DNA from: Gautieria morchelliformis
Lineage: Eukaryota; Basidiomycota; Agaricomycetes; Gomphales; Gomphaceae
Direction of reading: 5' to 3'
NCBI GenBank assembly: GCA_015179125.1
Contig: WHVA01000451.1
Coordinates: 29,775 to 93,774 of the forward strand
Length of the DNA stretch: 64,000 bases
Of this stretch, positions 2,785 through 64,000 are shown one piece after another; the first letter of the stretch is position 1; every line of letters starts with the position of its first letter. The notes below the pieces were generated by a model that saw only the letters and a list, made by a program, of their open reading frames with translations, was not told where the DNA came from and did no database searches. A program made the translations under genes and the position numbers.

Positions 2785-2879
2785 CTAGTGGAAATTCAAT
2801 AGAATGACTTGCATTGTTTGACATAGTGAGTTTGCACAGAGCGCGGAGTCAAATTGCAAAATCGAAGCACAACCAATTG

Positions 2880-4685: not shown

Positions 4686-4725
4686 AACCTGTAGATATAT
4701 ACACGCAGTAGTCTAAAGTAAGAGA

Positions 4726-4862: not shown

Positions 4863-5004
4863 ACCTAACTACGGGTCTGATCTATATACTTGCTTCGGTC
4901 ATTCAAGACCAAAGCTATTATCATTCTCCCTACTCTGATTGTCCGGTCGCGCCGTGCGCGGCCCTGCTGCGTTCTACGCTTACCCGTCATATCCTAACTC
5001 CAAC

Positions 5005-5500
5005 AGTTCGGTTCGTTTGTGCAAAAAGGTCGTTTGGAGTTTTTTGCAACGAACCGAGCTGTAAGAATTGAGGCACTCAGTTCGGTTCGGTTCGTTCGGC
5101 AACCTCTGGCCGGACTTGAAGACTTCACCTTTTTTAGTGCTACGCTCCTTCGTTACCAACAACGAATCAGGAATATTATCTAGGTCATTTAACACGTCAA
5201 GTCCAAGTCGAGAACCCGCAGTTGAGCCCATGCTAGTAATCCCTTTGTTTTTTTAAATCCATTTTTGTGGTTTTCCTTCTTGCTCCTCAGGCCTCAAGGC
5301 CTCATACACTCGCGAACGAAGTGGCCAGTCGATAATTATCCTGTAAGTCGCTTGGCCGAGCAGCCGAGGGAAACGCTGTTCAAAACGAACTGAGCGAACT
5401 GCCCCAGGAGCAGTTCGTCCAGTTCGTTTGCTCAACGTCTGTTTCAGCTCGCTTGTGGTCGAACTCGAAAATTTCGACGCGCGACGAGACGAACCGAACT
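5005..5500. mobile_element. Small element with AGTTCGGTTCGT terminal inverted repeats
   Basis: AGTTCGGTTCGT at 5005-5016 is mirrored by ACGAACCGAACT at 5489-5500. Related AGTTCGGTTCG copies sit inside (about 5084). The interior has no credible coding frame. A non-autonomous DNA transposon of about 496 bp is likely, but I see no clear target duplication, so the ends may be off. Confidence 0.4.
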
Positions 5501-5619
5501 AAGAATTGAGCAGCCCTTATGCAAATCATGAGATGAACTTGAAGGGGCTACAAGCCGAGTGCGATGTCTATGGGATCGTCGGCGACCCTGACACAGGCAA
5601 CAGATAATATGATGGGATC

Positions 5620-6068
5620 CTACGCCTGGAACTTCAAGTGGAAGGTGGGTGGCGCTGGACACCGTGAGCCTTGAAGCTTGAAGCTTGGGCGCTGAGGGCT
5701 GCCATAGATGATCGGATTGGTGGCCTTACTGTAAGTCCGATCGGAGTCACCAAGTAAGCACCCGTACTTACTTTCATCATACGCCACAGTTTGCCAAGTG
5801 GCAAGAGATGACAAAGTATTTGGATGTGGAAGCCGGGCCCGAGCCTGGAAAACACTAGCAACTTATATATATATATATATTCTGCAGCAACGACCGTTTG
5901 GATAAAGCAGTTGAGCTCATACATAAATTTGTTGAGCGCTATCCGCCTCAGATTGTCAAACATTCCTTCGCCTCTCGACCCAAGGCAGTCGACTAAGAAC
6001 ATCTGGAAAGGCCAATCGGCCGCTTGACGGAGCGCTCCACTATCCCGGAAGATCGTATTCTTCCTCAC
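5620..6068 (-). pseudogene. Coding-like remnant, family not recognised
   Basis: The minus frame VRKNTIFRDSGALRQAADWP, FQMFLVDCLGSRGEGMFDNL, RRIALNKFMYELNCFIQTVV has protein-like texture. It ends at an (AT)n tract (5863-5881), and lower down another frame reads SLATWQTVAYDESKYGCLL. I could not join the parts with good splice sites nor name the family. It may be an old exon pair of a lost gene. Confidence 0.25.
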
Positions 6069-42900: not shown

Positions 42901-43004
42901 TGCGCGCCGTCGGACGGCGACGCGGACTCGCAGCGCACCATCGCTCAAGACGGAGCGCTCGGCTTGTAGTGTCGTGTGTGTGGATGTCCCTTCCTATACG
43001 ATGC

Positions 43005-43785
43005 CAACCCCATTGGGTGTTCGTATGGCCAAAGTGTGATTGCAGGACATCCCTTCCATAGGCCGTGCGGGATCAACCCAGTAAACGAAGAGCCCGTGCA
43101 GGGTAGCATGTATGCGGGTCCCAAGACATGGTTTTGTCCATAAGTGCCTTCGCCCCCTTTACTCTCCGTCATTTCATGTTTGCATTCTCCCCTCACTCTA
43201 TTGTATGTTTATTCCATCTACTTAGTATCATGACTGCGCACCCCTATCCAACCCTGACTCATGACGGCCTCTTTCCTATTCGCTGACACCTTATGAGCAT
43301 TCGATATAAGTAGTTTACATTCGCATGTATATTCCCCAGTTCAATTATCATATGTCATTCATCTTGTGCAAATTTGACCTCGCTGTGGCCATCGTCTTAA
43401 GCCTTCTCTTGGAGATTTCTATCTTCGACTAGCAGAGGACTTGGGCGCTACTGGTGAGTTCTCACACTTCACCTTCGTTACCTTAGCCTTCGAACCATTT
43501 TCTGTGCTGTTGGCGAAGGGCTCCGAAGGAGCACCTTCGCCAGCGAAGGGATTGTCAAGACTTAGACAGCCCTTCCGTGAGACCTTGCACGATACATCGT
43601 CAAGAGCCACGGGTTATTTCGCTACGACGGTAGATAGGGTGAACCCCGTTTAGGCAAACCCTCTTACCTTGTGAACATTCATTGGTTCACCTATTCGCCA
43701 AACGGCATACTTATTCGCACAAGTTATTCGGGCATTCGCTGTGTTCACTAATACACGATATTAACGCCTGAAAACCAATCTTGAC
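43005..43785 (+). mobile_element. 5'-truncated LTR, family E
   Basis: Matches 57.02-57.80 kb over about 780 bp (for example GATCAACCCAG..., TATCATGACTGCGCACCCCT, ATTCGCATGTATATTCCCCA) and ends ACCAATCTTGACA. The first 240 bp of the LTR are missing. A strong hairpin GGCGAAGGGCTCC-GAA-GGAGCACCTTCGCC lies at about 43514-43543. Confidence 0.85.
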
Positions 43786-44160
43786 ACCCCCATATACACT
43801 GCCCTGCATGGGTTCTTCATCTACTGGGTTGATCCCACACGACCTACGGGTAGGATGTCCCACAAACGCACCCTGCTCATATGAACACCAAAAGGGGGTT
43901 GGATAGAGAAGATGATGGAGTTACTGATGAGCCATCATGCCGGATAGGGATGTCGATCATGATTTGATGGTGTGCCTGTTGGTGAATGATGCAAGCAGCG
44001 AATGGTTGTTCGGCGAAATGCGAGGGAGGGCGAACAGAGGTGACATAGAGGACTCTATGGGAGAGGTCGAGGTGGAGGGCGAAGCCGAGCGAACACTGGG
44101 GAGGAGTAGCGAAAGGGGAAATGGGGATAACAAGGTGCAGGAAATACACAGGTCATGACA
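43786..44160 (-). mobile_element. Inverted 5' part of LTR family E
   Basis: This is the reverse complement of the first about 360 bp of the LTR at 56.78 kb. It contains GGGTTGATCCCACACGACCT and ends GGTCATGACA, the mirror of the TGTCATGAC start. It abuts the 3' end of the preceding plus-strand copy directly, so the two form a head-to-tail inverted pair. Confidence 0.8.
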
Positions 44161-44345
44161 ATCCAATTACCAGAACACCATCAGAAGAGGGTCGAGCAGA
44201 GGAGGTGGTAGACCCAGCGATGACTGCCAAGTCAGTCCAAAGATGTTGATCATGCGTTTGACGGCGTGGGTATGGTAATTGGCGCGAACAGCGAGAATCG
44301 GTTGCCGAACATGATAATGGTGATCGGAACGAACACGAAAATGGG

Positions 44346-45671
44346 GTGAGAAATGGCAGGACAGAGCACCTGAGTATGATAAATAAACACGTCATGACAG
44401 GCCCGTCAGGGCATACAACGGCCTGCCCCATGTGGCGTCACAGCCGGGTGAGCGATCCATGGCCCCAATGGAAGGCCAGGGAATCCCTGACCAGGCCGAC
44501 GTCGTACCAAAGGAGCCGTACGACGGGATCAACATGGATGATCCGCGTGGCGTTAGCAGACGCCGCAGACACAGACCCGGAGAAGTCTGTGCTAGCGAAA
44601 GCCGGCGTGAAATTGGCTCACCCCGAGCCATACGCCGGGGGATCTGACCTCGAAGAGTTTGAAATCTTCGTGGCGGCCATCCTACGATGGCTGAAAATGA
44701 ATTGCCTCCTAGGGCCAACCAGCATAGACATGCAGGTTGGCTACGTGGGCACCCGCCTCACCGGCGAAGCCCAGGAGTGGTTCCTTCAAAACATAGAACA
44801 CTTCGATCGCCAGGTCCGCAACTGGATGCTGGAAACGGTGATGCAAGGCCTTCAGAAAAGGTTTCTGCACACACTGACGTACCATCATGCATCGAATAAA
44901 TTCGACGCGGTCATGCAGGGCTTGAAAACCGTTCAGGAGATGCTGAACGAGCTCACGAAATACGCGGGACGTATGATACAGCCGCCAGACGATTACACGT
45001 TCCGGAGACGGTTCGTGTCGGCGCTGCGCGAAACACTGCGCAACAAAGTCCTAAAAAAGGGCTACAATGCCGAGAGCAGCTCAATAGAGCAACTCTTCAA
45101 GACGGCCCGAATGATTGAGGAGGCATCCCGATACAACATGGGGATGCGCCATGCAGAAAGTGCAGCAGTGGCAAGTGCTGCCTGGCTCACAGGGAGCAAG
45201 CCATTGACACAAATGGGCCTGACCAGGCCCAGCCTGTTCTCAAGGAGCGGAACAGGACAACGGTTGCCGCCCCCACGCCCAGCACAAGCTGGACGCCCGC
45301 CTGAAGCTAAACAGCCTCAAGCATCAGGGTCGTCCCCGCGACCTGCACAACCGGCGAAAGCGCCGGGCCGACCTAACGATCGGCCCAGCGGCGGCCAAAA
45401 CAGCACCACATGCTTTGAATGTGGCCAACCTGGCCACAAGAGGGCGGAATGCCCCCGGCTTAAGTCCAGTATCAGGACAGCGGCCGCGAGGCATGAGGAG
45501 GAGACCAAAGATCCAGAGACGGATCTCGGTCAGAATTCTCTCCATCAAATTGATGAAGAGGGGGAGGGTAATCCCCAACCTAACGACACTCTGGACAATG
45601 GAGACGTGCCCGCTGAAGAATGGGACCCCGAGCCATCCCAATACTATGAATGGGATGAGGAGGTGGAAGAC
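44346..45671 (+). CDS. gag: Gypsy-type gag with CCHC knuckle (element C), cut by an LTR
   Basis: After an N-terminal part of uncertain frame the retro-gag capsid domain reads AGVKLAHPEPYAGGSDLEEF, EIFVAAILRWLKMN, TGEAQEWFLQNIEHFDRQVR and LQKRFLHTLTYHHASNKFDA. A Pro-rich linker and the zinc knuckle CFECGQPGHKRAECP follow (about 45415-45457). The frame runs without stop into the LTR that begins at 45672, so protease and pol are absent. Gag would assemble particles and bind RNA. Codon texture is undamaged, unlike the neighbouring minus-strand element. The start Met is not certain. Confidence 0.8.
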
Positions 45672-48940: not shown

Positions 48941-49900
48941 TCAGCTCGAAGGCGGATCAGGAGGTGAATAATGGAATGGGAGGTGGTCATCGGCCAGCGA
49001 TTCTGTACATGGTGTACACATAGGTTCAGTTTCTATTATGCTTTCTTTTGTGGCTGAAAATGGATGGATGAGAGTATTGGGAAGCGATATGGAGGACTCA
49101 GAGGAGTGAGTCTCAATAGGCTTGGCTGAGGGAAGTAATGGTTCGCCATCCACATCGAACGTCTGTTCATAACCAGAAACATTTGGAATAGGAGCGGGCG
49201 AGGAAGTGACATCTGGTAGAAGGACCGGGATGTAAGAGAGTGGTCCAATCGCCGCGTTTGGGACGCAACCCAAGGATGGCAGGGACAAGTTTGAACCAGG
49301 AACTGACAGTGGCGAAAGCATCGAGGCAGTTCAGGAATACTGTCGAAGATAGCCGGAGGGGAAATCATCATGCAGGCCATAGTGACTGTCATACATGGAA
49401 GCATGGAATCGGTGCTGGAGAGAAAGGTAATTGAGAGAGAGCCCCAATTGATGGTGGGTTTCATAGAGCGAAGCCACAGAAGCCCGAGAATGATTGCGGC
49501 CGACGGATGTAACCTTGTGACTAGTAGCAAAATGTCCTTCGAAGAGGAGTGGCTGAAGGTGAGACTAGTATCTAGATACTCATGAATGAAACCAGCAGTG
49601 GCTGGCTTCCCGTCGAAAAGAGAGAGAGCAATGGAAGAACGGAGCGATGTACATATGCAACCAGGATGAGAGGAAAATGAGCTATCAATAAAATTCGAAG
49701 TGGCACCATAACCGACGAGAGTAGGAACAGAGTTAGAGAGACCAGGAAGGTGTACATGGATGATGAAGGACGAATTGGAATGGGAGCTAATGGAGGCGAA
49801 CAAGTACACAGGTGGTACAGAGTAGATAAGGTTGTTGTCCGAAGAAACAGAGCAGTTGTGGGTAAGAGTTGTGAAGGATGGTTCGGAATTCAGTTGGAGA
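48941..49900 (-). pseudogene. Gypsy protease region, altered active site
   Basis: The retropepsin-like segment reads VPTLVGYGATSNFIDSSF where DSGAT is expected (near 49700), so the catalytic Asp is lost. It is followed by IILGLLWLRSMKPTINWGSL, the usual LGxxWL..HNP.IDW motif of Gypsy proteases. The frame then drifts and a parallel frame (48941-49321) takes over. Confidence 0.75.
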
Positions 49901-50400
49901 GAAGACCCAGGCCCGCCAGGTGGGGCAGGAATCTGTGTGGAAGATTGTTGCGGAGGAAGGTGACCCGCGAAGGGGTGAGGTTGCCCCACGAATAGAAGTG
50001 GCGCAGGCCTGCCAGGTGGGGCAGGAATCTGTGCCAAAGATTGTTGCGGGGGAGGGTGACCCACGAATATAAGTGGCGCAGGCCTGCCTGGTGGGGCGGG
50101 AATCTGTGCGAAGGATTGTTGCGGGTGAGGTTGCCCCGTGAATAGAAGTGGCGCAGGCCTGCCAGGTGGGGCAGGAATCTGTGCGAAAGATTGTTGTGGG
50201 GTTGGGTGACCCAGGAATAGAAGTGGCGGAGGCCCGCCAGGTGGGGTGGGAATCTGTGCAAAGGATTGTTGCAGGGGAGGTTGTCCCACAAATAGAAGTG
50301 GCGCAGGCCCGCCATGTGGGGCAGGAATCTGTGCGAAGGATTGTTGCAGGGGAGGCTGTCCTGCGAAGGGGTGAGGTTGTCCCACGAATGGAAGTGGTGC
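49898..50400 (-). repeat. Six 75-bp units coding a Pro-rich repeat (QQSFAQIPAPPGRPAPLLF)
   Basis: Six copies of a 25-residue unit with core QQSFAQIPAPPG, some with an extra HPFAG, form the N-terminal part of the element D frame. Units differ by a few bases, so expansion is old or has been diverging. Confidence 0.85.
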
Positions 50401-50402
50401 AG

Positions 50403-51228
50403 TGTTATGACCCGTTCCTGGATCTGGACCGAAGCTTGGCTTCGGCTCTTGTTCGGGAACCTCGGGTACATCTTGGCTTCCTTCGGGTTTCCCTTTGCAC
50501 TTCCCATCACCCCTGATTCCCTTATTAGTTAGTTCCCCGTTTGTCTGCCCCTTGTTTCCCTGACTGTTGATCCGATCACATCCTCTTAGCAACCCTGCAC
50601 GCTACTTCACTATATAGACTTCCAGTCCATGTACAGTAGCTCCCCAGTTCAGATATCAAATTAGCTTATTGTACTTTCAGCGCTTTGCAGTACGTAAGGC
50701 AGGCGCTGATTTTGTGCGTGCTTTAGCTGCAAGAGTTAAAACAGCGATAACTCAGGGAATACTGCTCTGATTTCTTCGAAATTTTGTATATAGCTTTATG
50801 TAGATCATATGCAGGGCACAGAGCAATAATATCCAGCAAAGTCATCCACTTTGCAATTCACACAAAAATTGGGTCTTTCAAATTGCTTGATTTTTAGTGA
50901 GGTTATTACTCTGTGCCCTGCCTATGCTCTACATAAAGCTATATACAAAATTTCGAACCAATCGGAGCAGTATTACCTGAGTTATTGCTGTTTTAAGTCT
51001 TGCAGCTAAAGCACGCGCAAAATCAGCGCCTGCCTTACATACTGCAAAGCGCTGTAAGACCTTTGCTTGCTATTGAAACCCGTACCTCGGCTTATAGCCA
51101 AGACTGCTCCTGAAATTAGGGCAGAACACAGAGTGGGCGCAACCCTAGAGGTTGAAGCCAAGCCCTCCGACCCGAGACCCGAGTTCGGCTTAGTATAGCC
51201 AAACTGCGGTATGAACACGACCTTAACA
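50403..51228 (+). mobile_element. LTR A (5' LTR of element A) carrying a foldback insertion
   Basis: Starts TGTTATGACCCGTTCC and ends GACCTTAACA. Layout matches LTR B (TGTTACGACCG...CGTAACA), including GGGCGCAACC..AG.TTGAAGCC near the end. The upstream end interrupts the minus-strand element D. The gag of element A follows 30 bp later, so this is its 5' LTR. Confidence 0.75.
50678..51054. mobile_element. Foldback (long inverted repeat) element inside LTR A
   Basis: CAGCGCTTTGCAGTACGTAA at 50678 is mirrored at 51054, and the arms pair with few mismatches for about 150 bp on each side (TTTTGTATATAGCTTTATGT and its complement near 50790 and 50930). A short unpaired centre lies at about 50835-50895. 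No coding frame. Target duplication not clear. Confidence 0.8.
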
Positions 51229-51260
51229 GTATATCTGAACTCTCCACACTCTTTGTTCAG

Positions 51261-52629
51261 AATGCCGATCACCCGATCTTACACCCATGCCGAAGGCAAC
51301 CACGTAACGCTGACGATCGAAACTCAGCGTGCACGAGGTGCCTCGAGCATCCCAGAAAACCCCCCGTTCCGTCACTGATATTCCAACCCCCCGTCAGTAC
51401 AACCCGCACCCAGGCACTGAGTAATTGGTGCTGGCCGAGGGCGTGTCAGCGAAGTTCCCGAAGAACTGAACGCTGAACCCCCCGAGCCAAGTGACCCTGG
51501 TGATGGTGGTGGAGGTGGCGATAATTCCAATTCCAGTTCCGAGCATAATTCCGATCCCAAAGTAGCAGACCCGAGACCTAATCCCAACCTGAATGCAGCG
51601 GCAAATGGCGAGGAACAGGTGGGGTGACTGCTCACAGCTTTGGAAAAGCTTGCAGACAATGGGCTTGGTGGTGGTGGAGACCGAAGTGACTCAAAAGCTA
51701 AACTCCAGGAACCCGACCAGTTCGATGGCTCAGACCCGAAAAAGCTCCGAGGATTTCTTCTCCAATGCACGTTGAATTTCCGTGCCAAACCGCAGGCATT
51801 CCGAGATGGTTCTACGAAAGTGAACTACATTTTGTCCTTCCTCAAGGGAACAGCTCTGGATTATTTTGAGCCCTACCTTGCAGACGACCCTGCCGACGAA
51901 CCCGCATGGGCTTCGGATTATACAGCATTCACGGAAGAGCTCTACCTAAATTTCGGCCCCTACAATCAAGTTGCGGATGCTGAAATTGAGCTCGAGAATC
52001 TGGTCATGAAGGATAACCACAAGGCAACTCAGTTTTTCGTTGAATTCTACAGACTCACATCCGTCCTTCAGTATAACGATTCGGCTTTGCATCACCGAGC
52101 CTACTTGGCTCTGCCGAAGCGAATCAAGGACGAAATGGTGCATTTCGACAAACCCCAAACCCTTGACAACCTCCGGGACCTTGTTCAGAAGATCGACCAG
52201 AGGTCTTGGGAACGTCGTGGTGAGCTCTCTTGCGAGACTCATTTTGCCCCCCAAACCTGAGGCCAAGAACACAGGTCAGCCAACCAAAACCGAGGCTCCC
52301 AGAACAACAACCGACGTCAAGGTCAAGGTTCCGGCAACTCCAACGCTAATGCCAGTAATAATCAAGGCAAAGGCAAGGACAAGCCAAAAGTGAATAATCA
52401 GTCCGAGGGTCAGAAAAAACCCGAACCGGACAGACTTGGCAAGGACAGAAAACTCACTCCCGCAGAACGCCAACATTTCATGGATAACAACCTCTGCTTA
52501 GTATGTGTGCAGAGTGGCCACCGTGTGAAAGAGTGTCCGAGAGCCATGTCGGCCTGGGCAGCCGCGGCTTCTGACGGGAAGACGTCTGACGAGAAAGCCG
52601 ATAGCTCGGCTTTGGGCGCAAAAAAATAG
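51261..52629 (+). pseudogene. gag: Gypsy gag, element A, with stops and a frameshift
   Basis: From MPITRSYTHAEGNHVTLTIE the frame meets three TGA codons before the capsid domain (LEKLADNGLGGGG, EPDQFDGSDPKKLRGFLLQC, YFEPYLADDPADEPAWASDY, KRIKDEMVHFDKPQTLDNLR). After 52258 the frame shifts, and the zinc knuckle CLVCVQSGHRVKECP appears in another frame at about 52495. Element B is inserted right after (52659), which removed the pol region from this copy. Confidence 0.8.
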
Positions 52630-52658
52630 TCAGTGGCCCTACAGCCTCCGCACATACT

Positions 52659-54706
52659 TGTTACGACCGTTCATTTCCGACTTCCGACCTCCAGTTCCGC
52701 AACACTTTCTGCCCCTCCGATATTTCCGCCATTCTGCCCCTTGTCCATTTCCCTTGTTCTTTCGACTCTATTACTTGGACCCACCAGACCCACCTCACCG
52801 TCCATCAAGATCATACGTCCGGCTGTTGGGGAATCAGCTGTTCAACCAGCTACAAAGGGCTCATACTGGTGTGTTTCCGCTTTTTCACAAGTTATAGCAT
52901 ATACACGAAGCTATAAGAAATTGTGGGAGTATTTCAAACATCCCTCCATCGTTCCCCCATTTTTCCATATTTTTCCGCAATTTATTTGGCCCAAACTGCC
53001 TTATTTCTGCTATTGCAGAGTTGTGTGTCCATTTGCACCCACAACTCTGTCACGGACTTTCCATTTCAAACTCCGCCGGCCACCTCGGCGGTACCTTAAT
53101 TTCGGACTTACCGGTCACTCAAGCGCCCACAAGTCCGGCAGGATGGCTCTCCCAGTAATTCCAGCTGAGCCTCAATCTGTTGCTATATGCAGCCATAGCA
53201 ACTATGCAGCCTGTTTGGCTGAACCAAACAGTGGGGATCTTGGTCAGTCATGACAACAAGGCTGTATCAGGCTATGCAAGGCAGTGCTAAGCAGTGCCCT
53301 TGGTTATTGCGGCTACAGAGCACTAATTGGCTCAGGTTTGCTTACTAAGCCTCTAAGTGCCAAAGTCATAACTGAAGGTACAGCCTCAGTGACTCAACCA
53401 AACCAGGCACTACTTGGAGAGTCAGGAGTACATAACTCAACCAAGCTGTGCCAAGTCACATGACTCTGATCAGTGAGTCATTCCTGACAAATCAAGCTGT
53501 GATTGGTAGGAAACACTGTGAGTCATCTGGAAACATCCAGAACCTTCCTATACTTTCTTCCAGCTTCCACAAGCTGCTCCCCCCATTCCATTAATAGATA
53601 GAAGGTTCTACCTGCTTACTAAGCCCATGTACATTACAATATAAAAGGAGGCCCTTTTGCCTGCCTTTTCATCAGCCAATCTACCATCTTCTATCCAACG
53701 CACCTTGCGTGACTTGCCAAGCTTGCACAGCTTACCAGGCTGCTAACCCCAGCTAGGGTTATTACACTTGCTTAGTGTATTAATTCTCAGTTAAGTAGTT
53801 GCTTTTCTACTTAGCCACCCAGACTAACCCTCTAGGTGAAATTCTGCAGAGTGAGGTTGTCAATCGATTTTCTTGCCAATTAGCACTCCAATACCCGAGA
53901 CGATCTGATCAGTCGATTTTCCTGTTCAGAGACTTTCACAAGTCACTACCCAAAAACCAGTCACTCGTTTATTGCAGTGCGTTGACATTAATCGGGTCAG
54001 CCCACTTACAAACTCTCCTGCGAAAGCCATTCCTCTCTTTTTGGAATACTTGGACCCCGATAGTCGTCCTCGAACCTACAAACTAATAGTTTGTTATTCA
54101 TTACGCCAGTAGTGTCTAATATTCTTGCAGTTTTGTATACGACACGTTCTGATAGACCAAGGCGTTAGCTCTAACACCAAAGTCTTGAAGGGTCCCAAAA
54201 CACCGGCCCTCCTTGTGTTTTCGTTGTCAGATATGTTTTCCCGACCCCTTGTTCTTTGCCATTGTTCTACCTTACCCTGAACCCCCCTTGTAGTCCCATT
54301 GTTCCCAATTAGTTAGTTCCCACGCATTGTCTACTCGACTTCCGCTTCCCCCGGAATTTGCTTAGTACTACCCCATTACTTGTTGTCTCAGCTCTTTGTA
54401 TAAAAGCCTGTCTTGTATGTCTCTTATTCTGCAATCAGATAATCGCCTTCGATACTTGATTTCCTTCGCTCCATCTCCTGTTCTTAGTACAGCGAGTCTA
54501 GCAAGATCTCAGTCTCTCTCCGCCTTCCGTCTTCCGCCTTCCGCCTCAGTTCCGACTCAAGTTCCGACCAACCTTTGGTTCAGTACTTTCCGACTTCTGA
54601 CTCAGTTCCGAAATACTTAGGACGATAGTTCATTGGGCGCGCAACCTATAAGTTGAAGCCGCTGTCCTTTCCAGTTCCGACTTAGCGGAAATCACGATAC
54701 GTAACA
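52659..54706 (+). mobile_element. LTR B (5' LTR of element B), interrupted
   Basis: Starts TGTTACGACCG and ends GATACGTAACA. About 664 bp once the inserted LTR (52824-54202) is removed, close to the 692-bp inverted copy at 58076-58767. I count 13 TTCCG and 2 CGGAA in it. The gag of element B begins just after its 3' end. Confidence 0.85.
52819..54207 (+). mobile_element. Solo LTR (copy 2) with 5-bp target duplication CCGGC
   Basis: LTR 52824-54202 (TGTTGGGGAATCAGC ... GGGTCCCAAAACA) flanked by CCGGC at 52819-52823 and 54203-54207. It sits inside LTR B, whose two halves can be aligned with the uninterrupted copy at 58.1-58.8 kb. Almost identical to LTR copy 1 at 45.67 kb, so transposition was recent. 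Confidence 0.93.
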
Positions 54707-54739
54707 GTATTATCTGATTCCCACCCGACAACTATCACT

Positions 54740-56124
54740 ATGCCTCCTCGTACCACAGCTACTTCAGCTCGAGCAGGAGCTGTCGAAGCTCTCTCTTATT
54801 TTGGCTTAGATCCGCAGCACCAAGGCACACGGAACCCTCCGGCAGCCCTCGTGCCGATGATGAGCTCTCCGATGCTATTCCGCAACGATTCGAAGAAGTT
54901 CCCGACGCTAATCCCGATGACAATCCCGACTATGACGGAAACTCGATGAGTAGCAGTGGCGAACAAACAGCAGCGTCATTCCGACGCCCAGCTCCACCAC
55001 CACCACCTCCACGAGGACCACCTCCAGGCGGCCCTCTTGGCGGCCCACCCGGCGGTCCCCCAGGCGGTCCTCCCGGCGGTCCTCCACCTCCAATTCCACC
55101 TCAGATTCCCACCAACCCAGTTCCGCCCGCGCCAGTTCCGGATCTTGCACAAGCCATCGCCATGCTAGCCGGACAACTTCAGCGCCCGGCCCAAGCACCA
55201 CCATGCCCCAAGACAAAGGTCCGCGAACCAGATCAGTTCGACGGTTCCGACCCCAAGAAGCTCCAGCCTTTTCTGGTCCAGCTTCAACTCAACTTCCGCG
55301 ATCGTCCCGATGCCTTTCCCGATGACGAACGAAAGGTCAATTACGCCCTTTCCTATCTCCGAGGCATGGCACTCGACTACTTCGAACCCGCCCTCATGGA
55401 TCCGTTCGCTCTCGTGGACTGGTCCGACGATTACCACAACTTCGTTTCCGAACTCCGCAGCAACTTCGGACCATTTGACATGGAAGCCGATGCGGAAAAT
55501 GAACTCGATAAGCTTCGTATGAAAGACACTCATAAGATAGCTGAATATATTGTCACATTCCAGCAGCTCGTTCCTCGAGTCCAATGGGGAGAAGCCACAC
55601 TCCGACACCAGTTTTACATGGGCTTGCCATCCCGGATCAAGGATGAAATTGCCCGCATCGGAAAACCCGCCACCCTTACCGACCTTCGCAACCTTGCCCA
55701 ATCCATCGATTCGCGCTACTGGGAAAGACATTCCGAGATCGCTCGTGAAACTTCCGCCCAGAGCAAGAACGACAAGTCTTCCGACAAGAAGTCTGACAAA
55801 GACAAGAAGAAGACTAATTCCGGAAACAACAACAACAACAGTTCCGGATCCAATTCCGGCAACCGGAACAACAACTCCACCCCTCGCAATAACCATCGTC
55901 GACGAAATCGGCATCCATGCAGCCATCGCAGGACTCGACCAAACCAAGTATGGCGCGTTCACCTCATCCCTACTCCTGATCAGCACACTCGATCGTACCA
56001 CCGTCTCCACTGCCTTCAGGAACGAGGACATGAAGTGCCAAGCAAGCCTAGCATCATGAAGAACGGATATAACAAGGGGCAGGATTGTCAGAAGTATCGG
56101 AATGTCAGAAAGGAATGGAACTGA
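54740..56124 (+). CDS. gag: Gypsy gag, element B
   Basis: An opening segment (MPPRTTATSARAGAVEALSY, from 54740) is in one frame, and the main frame from about 54930 continues MSSSGEQTAASFRRPAPPPP, a Gly-Pro repeat (GGPPGGPPGGPPGGP). The retro-gag domain follows: VREPDQFDGSDPKKLQPFLV, YALSYLRGMALDYFEPALMD, LRSNFGPFDMEADAENELDK, LPSRIKDEIARIGKPATLTD. A Lys/Asn/Ser-rich low-complexity tract follows, then the frame degrades before a zinc knuckle can be seen. Close relative of element A gag. Pol is not present in this copy. Confidence 0.8.
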
Positions 56125-56774
56125 GTGTCGGAAGTTGGAAATGCATGGTTGTGACAAATACCAATTCAATGAAGCAATATCCACCAAGGTCTTCAGTTTT
56201 ACGTGTACAGTTGGGAAATGGCTGAAGGACTTGACAAAGACTCCCCCCTAAAACCAGACCTTGTTGGTTGTCAGTCTGTTGATGAGAGCCGAGGCTCTCA
56301 TGGAACGAGGCTGAAATTTGTGTAGAGGTGAAGAATAACTGGCCTGGTTTGATCGTGCAGTCAAGCATGTACACGCGCTGTATGTTCGCACACCGATTGG
56401 ATAGACTCTTCGTCACTGTTATCCATTCCAACCACGCAACAATGGGGGTGTGCTTTGGATTTTATTCTCGCAAGGGTCTGGTTGTTACACCGGAACTTGA
56501 CCTCTCGCAGGAGGCAGGCTTTAAAGTATTTGTCCATGGAGTACTTGGGATTAATTCTTGGACTGACGAAAACCATGCTGGAAGTGATACTACTCGTACC
56601 ATCACAGACATTGGGATTCCCAAGAGGGGTATATTCAAGATTTCGAAAACACTTTGTGACCGATGTTGCATTCGCAGATGAGCAACGCGTGTGTATCTTT
56701 TGGTCAAGAGGGGTGTGTTTTGACATTTAGAGATCTGGGCCAGTAGTTAACAATTGGGTTTGAAGGTGCAACCA
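56125..56774. other. Unassigned sequence between elements
   Basis: Frames of 80-120 codons on both strands but no motif that I can assign. It and 57806-58075 are the two sides of the solo LTR E insertion and may be parts of one older sequence. Confidence 0.3.
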
Positions 56775-57805
56775 TGTCATGACTTGTCTATTTCCCTTAC
56801 CCTGCTGCGTCTACGTTCCCCCTTGTCACTCCCTAGCATCTTCGCCAGAGTTCGCCCCACCCTTCAACCACTCTTCCTCTACATTCGCTCCGTTTGCTGT
56901 TCGCCCCATTCTCCAAACTGCTATTCGCTGCTTGCACATTTGCCAGCAGGCACACCATCAAATATGATCGATACCATTTACCTGGCATGATGGTCCATCA
57001 CTAGCCCCATCATCTTCTCGATCCAACCCCCTTTAGGTGTTCATATGGTCGGGATGCATTCACGGGATGTCCTACCTGTAGGTCGTGTGGGATCAACCCA
57101 GCAGACGAAGAGTCCGTGCAGGGTGGTGTATATGCGGGTCCCAAGACATGGTTTTGTACATAGGTGCCTTCGCCACCTTTACTCTCTGTCATTTCATGTT
57201 TGCCCTCTTCTCTCACTCTATTGTATGTTTATTTGATCTATGTTGTATCATGACTGCGCACCCCTATCCAACCCTGACTCGTCATGGCCTCTTTCCTATT
57301 CGCTGTTACATTACGAGCATTCAATATAAGTAGTTTACATTCGCATGTATATTCCCCAGTTCAATTATCATACGTCGTCCATCTTGTGCAAACTTGACCT
57401 CACTGTGATCATCGCCTTGAGCCTTCTCCTGTAGATTTCTATCTTCGACCAGAAGAGGACTTAGGCATCACTGGTGAGTTCCCATACTTCACCTTCGTTA
57501 CCTTAGCCTTCGAACTATTTTCTATGCTGTCGGTGAAGGGCTCCGAAGGAGCACCTTCGCCAGCGAAGGGATTGTCGCTACTTAGACAACCCTTCCGTAA
57601 CACCTTGCATGTTACATTGTCAAGTGCCACAGGATATTTTGCTACGACTGTAGATAGGGCGAGCTCTGTCCGGGCAGCCTTCTTATCTTGCGAACATTTG
57701 TTGGTTCACCTATTCGCCGAACGGCATACTTATTTGCACAAGTTATTTGGGCATTCGCTGTGTTCACTAATACATGATATTAACACCTAAAAACCAATCT
57801 TGACA
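56775..57805 (+). mobile_element. LTR family E, complete, probably solo
   Basis: Begins TGTCATGACTTG and ends AATCTTGACA (TGTCA/TGACA ends), 1031 bp. Flanks AACCA and AACCG differ by one base, consistent with an aged 5-bp target duplication. The hairpin GGTGAAGGGCTCC-GAA-GGAGCACCTTCGCC lies at about 57533-57562. Confidence 0.75.
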
Positions 57806-58075
57806 AACCGCCACCAATGGTTCTCCTGCTCAACCTCCATCCACTCACCAGTATAACTTATGAAGTCACCAACACCTGCATTCTCAGCCTGGAAAAGAGA
57901 CTGACGGTTGAGAACCCTTGAGGTGGGAAGGAGATATATCTTTTCCCTTGCCGGACACTGTCATTCTGAAAGATTCATGGCCATCGAAAACCCATAACAA
58001 AGAAGGCACAATGTTTCGAGCGTTATTGGGTGCATTTGGACTGCGAGACATCCTTGACTCATACCCTGTCAAGGT
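57806..58075. other. Unassigned sequence
   Basis: No motif recognised on either strand; see 56125-56774. Confidence 0.3.
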
Positions 58076-58767
58076 GTTACGTATCGAGATTTCCACTAAG
58101 TCGGAACTGGAAAGGACAGCGGCTTCAACTTATAGGTTGCGCCCCCAATGAACTATCGTCCTAGGTATTTCGGAAATGAGCCGGAAGTCGGAAAGTATTG
58201 GACCAGAGGTTTGGTCGGAACTTGAGTCGGAACTGAGGCGGAAGGCGGAAGACGGAAGGCAGAGAGAGAGACTGAGATCTTGCTAGACTCGCTGTGCTAA
58301 GAACAGGAGATGGAGCGAAGGAAATCAAGTATCGAAGGTGATTATCTGATTGCAGAATAACAGACATACATGAGGGGGTTTTTATACAAAGCGCAGAGCA
58401 ACAAGTAATGGTGTTGTACTAAGCAAATTCCGGAGGAAGCGGAAGTTGAGTACAATGTGTGGGAACTAACTAATTGGGAACAATGGGACTACAAGGGGGG
58501 TTCAGGGTAAGGTAGAACAATGGCAAAGAACAAGGGGTCGGGAAAACATATCTGACAACGAACTCCAAGGGTGACCGGATATATGGTTTTGATGGATGGC
58601 GAGGTGGGTCCGGTGGGTCCGAGTAATAGAGTCGAAAGAACAAGGGAAATGTACAAGGGGCGGAATGTCGGAAATGTCGGAGGGGCGGAACGTTGTGCGG
58701 AACTATTGGAGGGGCGGAAGGAGTGGCGGAACTGAGGGTCGGAAGTCGGAAATGAACGGTCGTAACA
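58076..58767 (-). mobile_element. LTR B, inverted copy: 3' LTR of chromovirus G
   Basis: TGTTACGTATCG ... GGTCGTAACA, the reverse complement of LTR B without its insertion. I count 18 CGGAA and 1 TTCCG on the plus strand over 692 bp. A purine tract AGAAGGGAGA (minus sense, 58780-58771) lies 3 bp outside its inner end, as expected for a polypurine tract next to a 3' LTR. No direct match between the outer flank CAAGG and the inner flank, so it is part of a longer element. Confidence 0.85.
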
Positions 58768-58889
58768 GTATCTCCCTTCTAAGGTTGAGCCCCGCGAGAC
58801 CACAAGTCGGAATCACGTGACCTGTGAACAAACGCGTCGGAGTTTGAAATATAGGCGGGAAACAAGACGCGTCTTCTGTTTACTCCATC
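58768..58889 (+). promoter_or_regulatory. Putative promoter of the antisense gene
   Basis: Between the LTR and the ATG at 58890 lie an exact TCACGTGA palindrome (58814-58821) and an AATATAGG box about 40 bp before the ATG. On the opposite strand the same stretch contains the polypurine tract of the element. Start-site use is inferred. Confidence 0.4.
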
Positions 58890-60095
58890 ATGAGCTCTTC
58901 AGTTGATTTCTCTAAAATGTCCAGTGCCGAGATGAAGCAGCACTTTGCTGATATTCTTGCGCAGAAGGAACTGGCCGAGAAGCGCGAGGCCGAGGAAGCC
59001 GCGCGGAAAGAGAGGGAGCGGCTGGAGGAGGAGCGCAAGGAACTGGAGCGTCGGGAGCAGGAACGGAAGGAGAAGGAGGAGCGTGACCGTAAGCGTCGCG
59101 AGGATGAGTCGCGCGCCCGTGAAGAACAACGGAAACGGGATGCGGCCGAAAAGGCTGCGGAAGAAAAGGCCGTGGCGGAAAGGGCAGGGAAGTTCCGGGT
59201 GAGTCGGAAATGTCGTGGGGAGGTTCCGGAGCTCACAGAGAACTGCCAGAGAGTTGCCGATTCCGAGGGGGAGTCGGAAGCGGAAAGCACGCCGACTCCA
59301 GAGGGCAAGGGGAAGCAAAAAGAAAGTGCTCCCATGCCGAACGTAGTTGAGGAGCGGAAACGGAGGGCGGACGAGTTCCAGCAGGCTCGGAAAGAGAAGC
59401 TGGCTCGGATACTGGAGTTGCGAGAGCTGGGGCCGGAAAATCCTGCGACCCGGAAAAGGAAGACCAGGGACGGTGAGGAGGAGAAGGCTCCTTGCGATAC
59501 GTGCGAGGTCAAGGGCCTGGAGTGCGTGTGGTCGGAGAATCCGCGGGAGACGGCCTGCGAACGGTGCTGGGACAAGAAGTGCCGTTGCGTGGTGGATGGG
59601 TGTGCCGCGAGGGTGGAGCGGAAACGGCGCAGGGTTGAGACCGAGGGGCCTGAAACCCCCAAGTCAAAACCGGGACCAAGCGGGAAGAAGGCGGAGGGGT
59701 TTCCGGTGACCGGAACATCGGAGACAGCGGTGCTGAACCGCTTCAGCATGGCATCTCCGCTGCTAGACATCGCGGAGTCGCTGAGGGGGATCCGGAAAAC
59801 CCAACGTGGGATCCGGAAACTGCTGACGGATATGGCGGTGGTTCAGGAACAGCAGTTGCTGTCGTTCCAGAACCAGATGACCGTCATGTCGGCGGTCCTG
59901 GAGCAGTTCAAGCGCGAGTACCGGTGGCGGAACGAGATGGTCCGGGAAAGGATGGAACCACGGGTGCAGGAGGAGAACGAGGCGGAAACGAGGGAACGGG
60001 TAGACACGGAGTTGATGGTCGTCGAGGTAGGAGGGTCGGAAAAGGATCCGGAAGCGGAAAGGGAGGTCGAGGCGGAGACCATGAGGGAGGAGTAG
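58890..60095 (+). CDS. Antisense retroelement gene: coiled-coil protein with a Zn(II)2Cys6-type cluster
   Basis: An intact single-exon frame of 401 codons, opposite to the pol of the element that carries it. Residues about 20-100 are a highly charged coiled coil (LEEERKELERREQERKEKEE). An acidic linker and Arg-rich stretch follow. Eight Cys lie at residues 202, 205, 212, 223, 226, 231, 233 and 238. Six of them fit C-x2-C-x6-C-x10-C-x2-C-x6-C, the fungal binuclear zinc cluster, in PCDTCEVKGLECVW and ACERCWDKKCRCVV. Basic residues follow (VERKRRRVE), then predicted helices (LLDIAESLRGIRKTQRGIRK, then a second coil) and an acidic tail. It stops 128 bp before the end of the integrase frame, tail to tail. 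It could be a DNA-binding protein in the nucleus. Intactness next to a truncated pol suggests a young insertion or selection. Not a standard gag or pol product. Confidence 0.75.
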   Translation: MSSSVDFSKMSSAEMKQHFADILAQKELAEKREAEEAARKERERLEEERKELERREQERKEKEERDRKRREDESRAREEQRKRDAAEKAAEEKAVAERAGKFRVSRKCRGEVPELTENCQRVADSEGESEAESTPTPEGKGKQKESAPMPNVVEERKRRADEFQQARKEKLARILELRELGPENPATRKRKTRDGEEEKAPCDTCEVKGLECVWSENPRETACERCWDKKCRCVVDGCAARVERKRRRVETEGPETPKSKPGPSGKKAEGFPVTGTSETAVLNRFSMASPLLDIAESLRGIRKTQRGIRKLLTDMAVVQEQQLLSFQNQMTVMSAVLEQFKREYRWRNEMVRERMEPRVQEENEAETRERVDTELMVVEVGGSEKDPEAEREVEAETMREE

Positions 60096-60223
60096 GGTGT
60101 CGAGGTGACTTGTAGTATTTTTCTTGAAGTGTCGGAAATTAGCATATCGGAATAATAATCGGTTTTTGATAAATGTCCTGAGAACTGTGAAAGCAATGGT
60201 GTCGGAAATGAGGTCGGAAATGA

Positions 60224-61168
60224 CTAGGGCGCGGAAATGGGGCCAGGCTTGTCAGGATATGACTTGTGGAAATCAGAGACGAGATCAGAGGCGTGGTCAA
60301 GTTCCGTGGCGGAAATCCACGAAGTCTCTTCGTCAGTGTTTTCATAGCCTGCCCACTTGACTAGGTACTGGAGTTGGCAGCGGTATCTTCTGTCGAGCTT
60401 GGAGTTGAGAATTTCCGAAATCTCATATTCCGGTTCTCCGTCGATGACGACTGGCGGAGGCGGAGGTTGTTCTCGATTCGGAATTGTATTCGGAACTGCT
60501 GGCTCAAGCATAGAGACATGGAATACCGGATGTACTGCGCGCATATTGTCAGGAAGTCTGAGGGTGAAAGAACGACTGCCGGCCTTAGCGATGATCTCGT
60601 AAGGACCGAGGTATTTCTCAGAGAGCTTCTTCGAGGGGCGAGTGGTGCGGAAGTTTTCCGCTTTGACAAAGGCTTTGTCGCCTATCTCGAATGCCGGTTG
60701 CGGAAGGCGTTTCCGATCGGCGGAAGTTTGGTATCTCTTCTGGGCAGCTGTAATGTTCTCTCGGAGGTGCTGGTGAAGGTCGTCAAGTTCCACAACGAAA
60801 TCTCGGGCTCTTGCAGAGGCGAGGTCGCGTTCGGGGTGGATGGCGAGATTCGGGTGGTAGCCCTTGTTGGCGTAAAAGGGTGAAATTCCGGTGGTAGCGG
60901 AAGGCGCGTTGTTGTAGGCAAATTCCGCGAGCGGAAGAAGGTCGGACCAGTTGCTATGTTGGTAGTTGCAATAGACGCGGAGATACTGCTCAAGGGTCTG
61001 ATTAGTACGTTCCGTCTGTCCGTCTCCTTCGGGGTGATAACCGGAGGTGAAGTGGAGTTTCATGTCGAGAGCCTTGCCGAGTGTGCGGAAAAAGGAGGAC
61101 ACAAATTCGGATCCACGGTCGGAAGTCACATGGGAAGGTATTCCGTGCTTGGAAAAGACGTGGAGCAC
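60224..61168 (-). CDS. pol: Chromovirus integrase C-terminal part with chromodomain
   Basis: Frame of 314 codons beginning inside the integrase core: VFSKHGIPSHVTSDRGSEFV (second Asp), SGYHPEGDGQTERTNQTLEQ (Glu of the DDE triad), then GISPFYANKGYHPNL and the GPY/F module (KKLSEKYLGPYEIIAKAGSR, VHPVFHVSMLEPAVP). It ends in a chromodomain (YEISEILNSKLDRRYRCQLQ, YLVKWAGYENTDEETSWISA). A chromodomain at the integrase C-terminus defines chromoviruses, which use it to target histone-marked chromatin. The N-terminal zinc-binding part and first Asp are missing: above about 61170 the frame breaks. This is therefore a 5'-truncated but otherwise clean 3' half. Confidence 0.9.
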   Translation of the reverse strand: MLHVFSKHGIPSHVTSDRGSEFVSSFFRTLGKALDMKLHFTSGYHPEGDGQTERTNQTLEQYLRVYCNYQHSNWSDLLPLAEFAYNNAPSATTGISPFYANKGYHPNLAIHPERDLASARARDFVVELDDLHQHLRENITAAQKRYQTSADRKRLPQPAFEIGDKAFVKAENFRTTRPSKKLSEKYLGPYEIIAKAGSRSFTLRLPDNMRAVHPVFHVSMLEPAVPNTIPNREQPPPPPVVIDGEPEYEISEILNSKLDRRYRCQLQYLVKWAGYENTDEETSWISATELDHASDLVSDFHKSYPDKPGPISAP

Positions 61169-61645
61169 AAAGAGCTGTCAGGGGACACCCTGTTTTCCAT
61201 TTCCAGTTCCGACACCACACCCAGTTCCGACTCCATTTCCGACTCCGCTTCCGGTTCCGATTCCATCTCCGCCTCCGCTCTCGGAAATGATTCCGCTTCT
61301 GGGAGAACTTCCACCAGTTCTGTTCGCCTTCCCAGTTCCACTCCAATTTCCGAGTTCCACCCTCGGAACAGTGTCGGAAATCAAGCGACTCACGTAATAG
61401 GTGACATCAAGGGTCGATCAAGGGTCAGGGAGGTGCAGGGTTGATGGCGGGTGCCAAGTGTTGTCCCTGGCTGCGCAGCGTAGTATAATACGGGCTCGCT
61501 GACATTGGGGGTCCTTAGACTTTTCTCTTTGGATTTCCCCTTGTCAGGTGAGAATCCCCTCTCTTGTATGCTCTGTTCATTTATACAGACTTTGGATTTC
61601 CCCTTGTCAGTTGTGTGGTAGTTTGATCTCCACAACTAGCCAGGG
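61169..61645. mobile_element. Junction of chromovirus G and element H; TTCCGA-rich tract and leader
   Basis: 61196-61385 is full of TTCCGA/TTCCACC units and overlaps the broken start of the integrase. 61440-61645 looks like the end of an LTR plus leader: CTTTGGATTTCCCCTTGTCA with a final G is repeated at 61527-61547 and 61590-61610. I could not fix LTR ends. Confidence 0.4.
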
Positions 61646-63019
61646 TTGCCCTTACAGCAGAAAAGTCTCTCCCATAGAGGACCGGCGGTCGTACTGCGTG
61701 TCGCAGCCGCCATAGGTGCGTTCGGAATCGGAGACAGCGACTCGGAGATCGCAACCTCTTCCGCACACACAGCGTATGACAGCCCTTCTTCTTACGTCGA
61801 GCTCCCAACCCCGGAAATCCCATCCCACATTTCTCCTTCCGACATGGATCCGGACGATCGTCTTCAGAATATGGAGGAGGAATTGACGCGGAACCGGATG
61901 AAGACCGACGCGATTGAAACAGCCTTACAAGCGATTTTGGCTAAGTTAGATATTCCACAAGGTGGTGGAAATGAAATGTTGGATGATCCGGATTTCGGAA
62001 AAGCGGAACTAGCGGAGGAGAGAAAGTCCGCGAAGTTAGCAAAGGTCAAACCCGCAACTCCGGCGGACTTTGACGGAGATCGGGAGAAGGGACGCGCATT
62101 CTTCAACACATGCAGCATCTACTTCGCAATTGTCGGAGACCTCTTTCCGAACGACCAGGCTCGGATTCACTGGGCATTGTCCTTTTTCAAGTCGGACCGC
62201 GCAGCCCGTTTTGCAAACAAGGTGATCCGACATGAAGCAAAGGGCAAGGGGAACTACTTCCGGGACTGGGACGCCTTCGAGAAAACATTTTCCGACCAGT
62301 TCTGCCCAAAAAATGAGCAGCTCACAGCCCTTACGAAGCTCGAGGGGACCAGCTGGTACCAGGCCAAGGATCCGGTCGATGACTATATCGATCGCTTCCA
62401 GGAGCTCATCGACCTTGCGGAGTATGATGACGACAAGACGATCGTCATCAAATTCCGACGAGGACTTGATCCGACACTCCAGAACCAAGTTGCGCTGCTT
62501 GGGGATGGAGCTCCGGACTTTGATGACCCGGAAGGGTGGTACCAAGCTGCACAGAGGGTGTCCCGGAACAGGGAAGCAAATGAGGCCTTCGTGGAGACGA
62601 GCCGGAATATGACGCGCAGTTCCACTCGTCCTACTCCACCTGTGCCAAAACCCGGAAGCGCATTCATTCCCATGCGGAAAGTATTTCCGACGCTTGCTCC
62701 GCCCGCTCCTATTAGGAACCATAGCCCTCCTCCCTCGAAGAGTGGCCCTGCCCCGATGGATGTTGACCGCATGCGCGGAAAAGGCCGCGGAACTATCACC
62801 TGCTTCCGATGTCAACAACCAGGCCACTATGCCCGCGAGTGCCCCCAAGCATTTGACATCCGGCTTATGACCACAGAGGAGAAACTCGAGCTCCTTCCAG
62901 AGTTCCTCGCACTTGCGGACATAAGCGGAGTGCCTACTGCGGAAGGAACTTCCGAAAATGCGGAACATGGCGCATCGGAAGCGGAAGATGCGTCGGATTT
63001 TGTGACGCGCAGCGGGTGA
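61646..63019 (+). CDS. gag: Gypsy gag with CCHC knuckle, element H
   Basis: A 457-codon frame. An acidic N-terminus and coil (RLQNMEEELTRNRMKTDAIE) precede the capsid domain (KPATPADFDGDREKGRAFFN, ALSFFKSDRAARFANKVIRH, FRDWDAFEKTFSDQFCPKNE, DYIDRFQELIDLAEYDDDKT). A Pro-rich linker and the zinc knuckle CFRCQQPGHYARECP (about 62803-62847) follow. It ends at TGA 63017. The protease lies downstream in the same register after further stops, with a short linking frame (63040-63230, NRFACLEVENEKPR) in another register. Confidence 0.85.
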   Translation: MPLQQKSLSHRGPAVVLRVAAAIGAFGIGDSDSEIATSSAHTAYDSPSSYVELPTPEIPSHISPSDMDPDDRLQNMEEELTRNRMKTDAIETALQAILAKLDIPQGGGNEMLDDPDFGKAELAEERKSAKLAKVKPATPADFDGDREKGRAFFNTCSIYFAIVGDLFPNDQARIHWALSFFKSDRAARFANKVIRHEAKGKGNYFRDWDAFEKTFSDQFCPKNEQLTALTKLEGTSWYQAKDPVDDYIDRFQELIDLAEYDDDKTIVIKFRRGLDPTLQNQVALLGDGAPDFDDPEGWYQAAQRVSRNREANEAFVETSRNMTRSSTRPTPPVPKPGSAFIPMRKVFPTLAPPAPIRNHSPPPSKSGPAPMDVDRMRGKGRGTITCFRCQQPGHYARECPQAFDIRLMTTEEKLELLPEFLALADISGVPTAEGTSENAEHGASEAEDASDFVTRSG

Positions 63020-64000
63020 GATGTGTGCCCCTGCTGCCTGTACATAACCGGTTTGCCTGTCTTGAAGTAGAGAATGAAAAGCCCCGACTCCCCTCACTTC
63101 ATACAGACCCACCGGATAAAGTCACACAAAAGCCAAATCCGACACCCCGTCTATCCCGCATCCGCCCTTGGGAGAGACGCCTTCCGAAGCGCTATGTTGT
63201 TGCTGCCACCCTGGCCCAAGTCACTAGTCATTAAGGTAGAGATCCAGACGACTGATACGGCGGAAGTCAAATCCGGACCCGCCCTTGTCGATTGCGGGGC
63301 CACTGGTCAGTTTATGGACCGGGACTATGTGGAACGGAACCGACTGACGACGCGGAAGTTGCAACGTGCAATCCCGGTGTTCAATGTAGATGGAAGCCCC
63401 AATGAGGCAGGGTCCATCACGGAGATAGTGGACACAATTCTCCGCTACGATGGACACTCGGAACGCACTTCCTTCGCTGTCACCAGCCTGGGGAAGCAAG
63501 ACATCATCCTCGGGTTTACCTGGCTTCAAGAGCACAACCTGGAGATCAATTGGCAGACTCGGAAGGTACTGATGAGTCGATGTCCAGCCAAGTGTCACAT
63601 GTGCGGTCGGAAGTGCGGAAGGAGCGCCAAGAGCAGCGGAAGACCGAACGGCTCATACAGACATGTCGTTCCGGCCCCCATCCACTGCTTGCAGAAGAAG
63701 ACTCGGAAGCGGAATTTGACCCGGATCCCCCTTCCAATTCCGATTCCGACGTCATCCGACTCGGCCTGGAAGACACTCTGACGGAAGGGGAGCGCTTGCT
63801 GTACGTAAACCTTCCGCCGGAGGCGGAACACATCCACGCCACCGGAAATATTTCGCAACGCCTTGCTGAAGCCTCTAAGAGGTATGATAGAGTGGAGGCG
63901 GAAATTCCGGAGTACCTGCGGGAGTTTGAGGACGTCTTCTCCAAGGAGTCGTTTGATGCCCTGCCTCCGCGGAAACTGTGGACCATGCCATCGAGTTGGA
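63020..64000 (+). pseudogene. pol: Gypsy protease and start of reverse transcriptase, element H (runs off right edge)
   Basis: The frame from about 63226 reads VIKVEIQTTDTAEVKSGPAL, VDCGATGQFMDRDYVERNRL (protease DxGAT with Cys instead of Ser, still possible), NVDGSPNEAGSITEIVDTIL, DIILGFTWLQEHNLEINWQT. Near 63640 it shifts. A later frame gives EIPEYLREFEDVFSKESFDA and LPPRK, the usual lead into reverse transcriptase, with a probable one-base loss at about 63975. The rest lies outside the window. Confidence 0.75.

Follow-up and report, generated by a model that had tools for sequence, protein, structure and literature searches.

Does a fungal retrotransposon encode a protein that recognizes the DNA of its own element? 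The question is raised by the last part (50-64 kb) of a 64,000-nucleotide stretch of Gautieria morchelliformis DNA, contig WHVA01000451.1, positions 29,775 to 93,774 (hereafter the window). This part consists of pieces of several long terminal repeat (LTR) retrotransposons, i.e. A, B, D, an H-type LTR and C. There, an initial annotation described an antisense gene in a chromovirus and proposed that its Zn2Cys6 product binds the CGGAA motifs with which the element is crowded. We followed gene and motif through the genome (122 Mb, this one genome only) and sampled the families A, C, E, H, I, K, M and copia. A and C carry the word CGGAA, E carries CGAGG and H carries GCGAA. Three of these families (A, E and H) have an antisense gene located between integrase and 3' LTR, a different one in each; the genes of A and E encode zinc-cluster-like proteins. 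These four families are chromoviruses, i.e. Ty3/Gypsy elements with a chromodomain at the C terminus of the integrase (PF00385 bit scores 32.8 in A, 57.2 in C, 35.8 and 36.4 in E, and 42.8 in H; cut-off 25.1).

Family-specific words in element DNA

In positions 58076-60095 of the window, for which 38 CGGAA and 5 TTCCG had been reported, we count 40 and 5, respectively. Base composition predicts 4.1 and 0.7 (about 4 had been given earlier as the random expectation), and the low count in the dipeptidase-gene stretch 24325-26349 was reproduced (2 CGGAA, 0 TTCCG). CGGAA/TTCCG is the most enriched pentamer of pieces A, B and C taken jointly, at 13.9 times the rate of window positions 1-50000. The density of CGGAA+TTCCG is 22 per kb in the integrase of A, 16-22 in copy B, 20 in element C, 5.6 around piece D (51000-53300) and 1.44 in positions 1-50000. 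Since the integrase, B and C are equally dense, the enrichment is not special to the stretch that bears the gene.

The same is seen in the genome. All 30 of the 30 loci with the A gene have 14.8-20.5 words per kb. Among the 30 RVT_1 loci with the highest scores, 28 have 7.8-18.4, the exceptions being L035 and L036 of family H (2.0 per kb). At the outer LTR end of 29 loci the density changes from 23.3 per kb inside (540 in 23.2 kb) to 1.84 per kb outside (37 in 20.1 kb), where 15 of the 37 words come from one locus, L010; the first 800 bp of the A LTR from that end have 23 per kb in the 29 loci. The base A is rare just before CGGAA (0.09 in family A, 0.05 in family C). Dimer sites of fixed spacing were also considered and rejected, as no spacing dominates; the direct spacings of 12 (A) and 6, 12 and 18 (C) may reflect short duplications.

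To separate the words from the proteins, synonymous codons were permuted inside each reading frame (1000 rounds), which keeps protein and codon usage. For CGGAA the z values are 7.8 (gag), 9.0 (pol), 7.4 (integrase) and 5.9 (antisense gene) in family A, and 7.6 (gag) and 12.1 (pol) in family C. The same word gives 1.1, -0.3 and -0.4 in the pol, integrase and antisense frames of E, and -0.5 and -1.1 in two pol pieces of H. CGAGG in turn reaches 4.2, 3.1 and 3.5 in the pol, integrase and antisense frames of E, and GCGAA reaches 6.3, 5.3 and 2.1 in H. Cross-terms lie between -1.9 and 1.2, except for CGAGG in the A antisense gene (2.5) and in the copia locus L064 (1.8). The family word ranks first among all pentamers in 4/4 frames of A and 2/2 frames of C, and the words of A and C occupy all three frames and both strands. 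In short, the words are real and reside at the DNA level, strongly so in A and C and less strongly in E and H. By these shuffles neither codon usage nor the amino acids encoded suffice as a cause, most clearly in A and C. A genome-wide mutational bias is ruled out by the sampled copia and other Gypsy loci that lack the words, and by related families that differ.

The words of E and H, which rest on few loci each, were selected from the first loci and later checked on new ones. CCTCG/CGAGG is the top pentamer of E, with 34 vs 5.2 (L069), 18 vs 3.4 (L071) and 41 vs 6.5 (L072) occurrences. GCGAA/TTCGC of H gives 24 vs 7.3 (L035), 29 vs 8.4 (L068), 16 vs 3.1 (L075), 15 vs 3.6 (L076), 13 vs 3.8 (L078) and 12 vs 3.2 (L080), the H copies being related to one another (L036 and L075 are 94% identical over 160 aligned codons). 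Forecasts made beforehand for new 5' pieces held in both families, with CCTCG/CGAGG as the top pentamer in E (L088, 29 vs 5.0) and GCGAA/TTCGC in H (L089, 21 vs 4.2).

Pol of A and pol of C (43% identical) contain 43 and 41 CGGAA in 912 aligned codons, of which only 6 are at the same place, and the relatives of C that are 57% identical to it (L094 and L095 of family K, 97.5% identical to each other) have only 2 CGGAA/TTCCG per 1.1 kb each. The words of A and C therefore seem to have been gained largely independently. Between A and E the two families' own words coincide nowhere in 525 aligned codons. In eight A antisense genes with pairwise dS of about 0.2-1.3 each copy has 17-25 words (z 3.6-6.0), and CGGAA/TTCCG is kept in 0.59 of the aligned comparisons vs 0.35 for other CpG pentamers. 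Among 336 pentamers CGGAA alone ranks 14th and TTCCG 110th, i.e. retention is raised and not extreme.

The antisense genes

The intact 401-codon gene of family A was found where it had been described, between the chromodomain integrase and the LTR (Table 1), and its cysteine cluster CDTCEVKGLECVWSENPRETACERCWDKKCRC reads exactly C-x2-C-x6-C-x10-C-x2-C-x6-C, as claimed. This position holds for the A gene in general, and the antisense genes of E and H are likewise placed. The protein has a charged N-terminal part, the zinc-cluster-like domain and a long C-terminal helix. At least 105 matches came from 103 scored candidates in the genome, and 38 of the 105 are stop-free over residues 1-401 at 71-100% identity; this and the other copy numbers given here (C gag, E gene, C junction) are lower bounds favouring good matches, as the best candidates were scored. 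The dN/dS ratio, named from the outset as a check, is well below 1: it is 0.13-0.41 in all 45 pairs and 0.15-0.27 in 41 of them, for 10 genes picked for long open frames among the 38 loci. The A gene is thus under purifying selection.

The cysteine spacing is found in 35 of the 38 loci, the three misses having merely a fragment as best frame, and seven cysteines are invariant in an alignment of nine sequences. In most copies the second half of the cluster reads C-E-R-C-R-D-K-K-x-R-C. When six antisense proteins (five of A, one of E) were scanned with Zn_clus (PF00172), four A copies matched with 12.6-18.6 bits. L087 has its basic second half on profile positions 1-13; in the other three (L002, L082 and L084) it is the first half that matches, and it does so in the later part of the profile. 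Because the matches are in this exchanged register, the two halves of the A cluster look exchanged relative to the Gal4 type, whose first, basic half reads CGG.

A single-sequence structure model of the window piece (mean pLDDT 62.3) is confident for the C-terminal helix only and did not resolve the cluster. A sequence search of the PDB gave four matches (E 0.14-5.4), all on the charged N-terminal part. The relatives in protein searches are fragments in two Gautieria morchelliformis gene models, which share 7% and 20% of the queries; residues 165-401 alone had no relative in the protein search. Two IMG/VR scans confirmed no relative. A separate observation concerns L033/L081 (contig C265), where an A-type pol is 95.7% identical to that of A (969 residues) and the antisense protein, interrupted by stops, has just 65% identity. 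This suggests that the antisense gene may evolve faster or may have been exchanged between subfamilies.

Family E is a related family, its pol being 67% identical to that of A over 535 residues (67-69% across comparisons). Its antisense gene, 295 codons as an open frame and not counted from a start codon, was followed by scoring 133 candidates. Among the 139 matches listed, the best 17 cover the query stop-free at 97-100%. The cluster is C-x2-C-x6-C-x15-C-x2-C-x6-C with the second half C-R-T-R-S-L-G-C, in which R-T-R-S-L-G is without the lysine pair of A. The pair present in A and absent in E fits the presumed readers, since CGG is part of the word of A and not of that of E.

Family H has a third distinct antisense gene, in which introns are likely. 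The frames of exon 1 and exon 2 have pN/pS of 0.24 (one of the five copies with a stop) and 0.33, and the other frames have 0.85-1.71, which shows that this gene is under purifying selection as well.

The remaining families provide the comparison. All 7 of 7 copia loci have only 1-5 CGGAA/TTCCG in 2 kb, and the further Gypsy loci L093 (family I) and L096 (family M) have 0 and 1. In L093-L096 (three families) no outstanding pentamer was found by codon shuffle, the top z being 3.5-3.6. The integrase of family I (L093/L097) is 68% identical to that of H over 252 residues, and no word was found in its integrase piece. The LTR of family I begins at L097:89, about where the integrase would end by the spacing of H, so an antisense gene is unlikely here; 35001-35599 of contig C251 (599 bp) lies outside the sequence covered. 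Between L097:696 and 950 (C251) this LTR has an array of 18 copies of TGACTC, the site of Gcn4/AP-1-type factors; 15 of the copies extend to TGACTCA, and the array is LTR-confined in the parts read. It looks like a set of ordinary host-factor sites and is a useful contrast. In sum, A, E and H combine gene and word, C is gene-less and has the word, and I probably has neither.

Candidate readers of the words

We think it somewhat probable that each antisense protein binds the word of its own family, bringing about element-specific activation or anti-silencing, and that C uses the protein of A. The more pointed statement, that every family has a private five-base word read by its own antisense-encoded protein and that the gene-less C forges the word of A, is for us a close call that falls just short of probable. 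In such a scheme a short CpG-containing word has come to be spread over the whole element in several chromovirus families, and A, E and H have in addition a separate antisense gene that could be transcribed from the LTR side. The protein would bind its own word as single sites, with no fixed spacing, all along the element, and binding would activate the element or lift the silencing of its kin. The more sites a copy has, the better it would respond, and sites would accumulate, coding sequence included; family C, without the gene, would probably use A's protein in trans. Of the roles that a bound protein could have, activation or anti-silencing is favoured over copy control or targeting, since the marks extend over the whole element. 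The related families A and E differ in the word and in the putative reader alike, and this difference in words, the absence of the lysine pair in E and the presence of A's word in C and not in its sampled relatives all fit self-recognition.

A number of results weigh against self-recognition. In element C the integrase frame reaches the LTR directly, with no antisense gene in 4/4 copies read. A 401-bp query across this junction gave at least 41 matches, 40 of them full-length at 96-100% and one covering positions 202-401 only, which shows that the direct junction is common in C, though some C copies may have the gene. C gag gave 92 scored matches at 97-100%, so the family appears recent and successful. 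The initial annotation had expected the word only where the gene is present and had counted equal enrichment without the gene against itself. Equal enrichment is what C shows, and the expectation stands in so far as E and H, with other genes, carry other words. The enrichment of C is compatible with the use of A's protein in trans, yet the simple rule is broken. The tally of genes and words rests on few families, with copia, K and M outside it. No zinc cluster was seen in the parts of the H antisense exons read, and the candidate third exon of H (two copies only) has pN/pS of 0.55-0.99 in three frames, none standing out. None of the six scanned proteins reaches the 21-bit Pfam cut-off of Zn_clus (best 18.6); L086 and E have no match, nor has the window copy at E 1. 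As for the words, GCGAA is only fourth (11 vs 3.4) in the H piece L077 when ranked against host frequencies, CGAGG is in some excess in the antisense gene of A as well, and the family word ranks first in only 2/4 frames of E (third in the other two) and 2/5 of H (one third, two outside the top five). CpG observed/expected, taken as a possible sign of CpG depletion or methylation (A 1.21, E 1.03, H 0.92, copia 0.92, C 0.81), fails to separate the word families from copia. In 2/7 copia frames the z of pentamers other than the family words is as high as 5.0 and 4.2, and a single E or H frame would therefore not convince; the recurrence across pieces does.

The words might instead be read by host transcription factors, e.g. 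zinc-cluster activators, different families exploiting different factors while the antisense genes act otherwise. The word-bearing C without a gene, the H exons without a zinc cluster and the TGACTC array of family I, by which LTRs of this genome do carry host-factor-like arrays, would all be accommodated. We nevertheless regard this as fairly unlikely: that array is limited to the LTR, whereas the words extend through gag, pol and antisense coding sequence; E, so similar to A in pol, differs from it in both word and zinc protein; and the A cluster retains CGG-type basic residues that the E cluster does not.

It is improbable, in our view, that the words were spread without selection by family-specific reverse-transcription errors, slippage or gene conversion. 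Short duplications are indeed hinted at by the direct spacings (6, 12 and 18 in family C; 7, 12 and 18 in family A), and there is an orientation bias in A, with 39 sense vs 121 antisense words, and in E, with 11 vs 38, but both orientations are present in C (57/41) and H (26/42). Moreover, A and C share the word at mostly different places with pol proteins 42-43% identical, the relatives L094/L095 of C are without it, and word density is maintained across divergent gene copies. Least of all do we expect the words to be landing marks by which an element protein directs integration towards copies of the same element or to a safe haven. Chromodomain integrases are targeting proteins, and element C starts within 1-2 bp of the break of A in the window; this one junction is no statistic, however, and A and E have the same integrase type and different words.

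Self-recognition by an antisense protein has parallels of several kinds. VANDALs, whose proteins were the initial model, are DNA transposons, and here we deal with LTR retrotransposons. TnpA of maize En/Spm binds numerous short sites within that transposon and affects methylation; unlike the present families, En/Spm is a DNA transposon and the TnpA sites are subterminal. The bZIP factor HBZ of HTLV-1 is the product of an antisense regulatory gene near the 3' LTR, and we know of no saturation of the HTLV-1 provirus by HBZ sites. Compared with fungal Zn2Cys6 domains (PF00172), A has the six cysteines in binuclear spacing and E has x15 between the third and fourth cysteine.

The VANC anti-silencing proteins of Arabidopsis VANDALs have been proven to bind their words (PMC5735166, PMC10398659), and related families have different words, YAGTATTAY for VANC21 and AGTTGTCC/AGTTGTAC for VANC6 (PMC5735166). 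The present families share with them an element-encoded accessory gene and short family-specific words that differ between related families, and the accessory gene is under selection in A (dN/dS) and H (pN/pS). AT9TSD1, unrelated to VANDAL, carries the VANC6 words and loses methylation in VANC6 plants (PMC5735166), which is a precedent for C bearing A's word. VANC words, by that account, are tandem repeats in non-coding regions, whereas here the words run throughout gag, pol and antisense coding sequence too. Also unlike VANC, the present genes are antisense to pol, two of them encode zinc-cluster-like domains, and binding of the words is a prediction.

Retand LTR retrotransposons of plants (PMC11963269) carry, between pol and 3' LTR, antisense TRP28 open reading frames that encode a predicted DNA-binding domain and are suspected of a regulatory role; they also have family-specific tandem repeats. 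The antisense genes of HTLV/STLV are mentioned in the same paper. A, E and H resemble Retand in the place of the gene and in the suspected regulation, A and E also in a predicted DNA-binding domain. Retand differs in being a non-chromovirus plant lineage with another domain, A, E and H having chromodomains, and the text of PMC11963269 covered here describes no element-wide word for Retand.

A VANC-like self-recognition system in LTR retrotransposons and in fungi did not surface in our searches of the open-access literature. If binding is true, the present families would be such a system in both, a DNA-binding protein and its sites would co-evolve, with cheating by gene-less families, in a way testable within one genome, and selection on DNA words would reshape synonymous sites across whole elements. 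Despite the gene-less C, the broader pattern of words in several families seems to us to strengthen the idea of self-recognition. Even without the link to a protein, element-wide and family-specific words in coding DNA call for an explanation.

Other features of the window

The retroelement pieces are collected in Table 1. The LTR of copy A has an inverted counterpart in the LTR of copy B (93.5% identity). The LTR of element C begins within 1-2 bp of the break in the integrase frame of A, and C may thus have been inserted there; its far side lies beyond the window.

Table 1. Retroelement features of the window (positions in the 64,000-nucleotide stretch; paired counts as in the text)
Feature	Position	Strand	Remark
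LTR, chromovirus copy A	58075-58767	-	adjoins 5' end of antisense gene; ends TGTTACG...CGTAACA read from sequence
Antisense gene, 401 aa	58890-60095	+	between chromodomain integrase end and LTR
Cys cluster of A antisense protein	59493-59588	+	basic D-K-K stretch in second half
Integrase C-terminal part with SH3_Tf2-1 and chromodomain, copy A	60224-61177	-	broken off where element C starts
LTR of copy B (second A-family copy)	54220-54705	+	by sequence comparison
gag of copy B	54718-55900	+	CGGAA/TTCCG 16/kb
Piece D: old gag and LTR fragment related to A's LTR	51628-52822	+	weaker motif density
Element C: LTR (61176-~61656), gag with CCHC knuckle, protease start	61176-63999	+	CGGAA 20/kb
H-type LTR (85% to L068)	56775-57812	+	TTCGC/GCGAA 15 vs 3.1 over 56300-57800
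More H-type LTR pieces	43004-44160		TTCGC/GCGAA 14 vs 2.1 over 43501-44500

A 75-bp tandem repeat is found at 50000-50374; the neighbouring positions 49352-50067 resemble the 5' part of H (L089) at 78% identity. A large inverted repeat at 50674-51058 has arms of 183 nt with 87% identity and 19 nt between them. At the other end of the window a copia-like element (2785-6000, minus strand, by eye) has a 5' stretch rich in CGAAC/GTTCG, with 15 vs 1.9 occurrences in the 1-kb windows from 4501 and 5001. The frames at 7853-11484 resemble, by eye, a NACHT/WD-repeat protein with near-identical WD units, and the host frames with high z at 9307-11484 contain internal repeats on reading.

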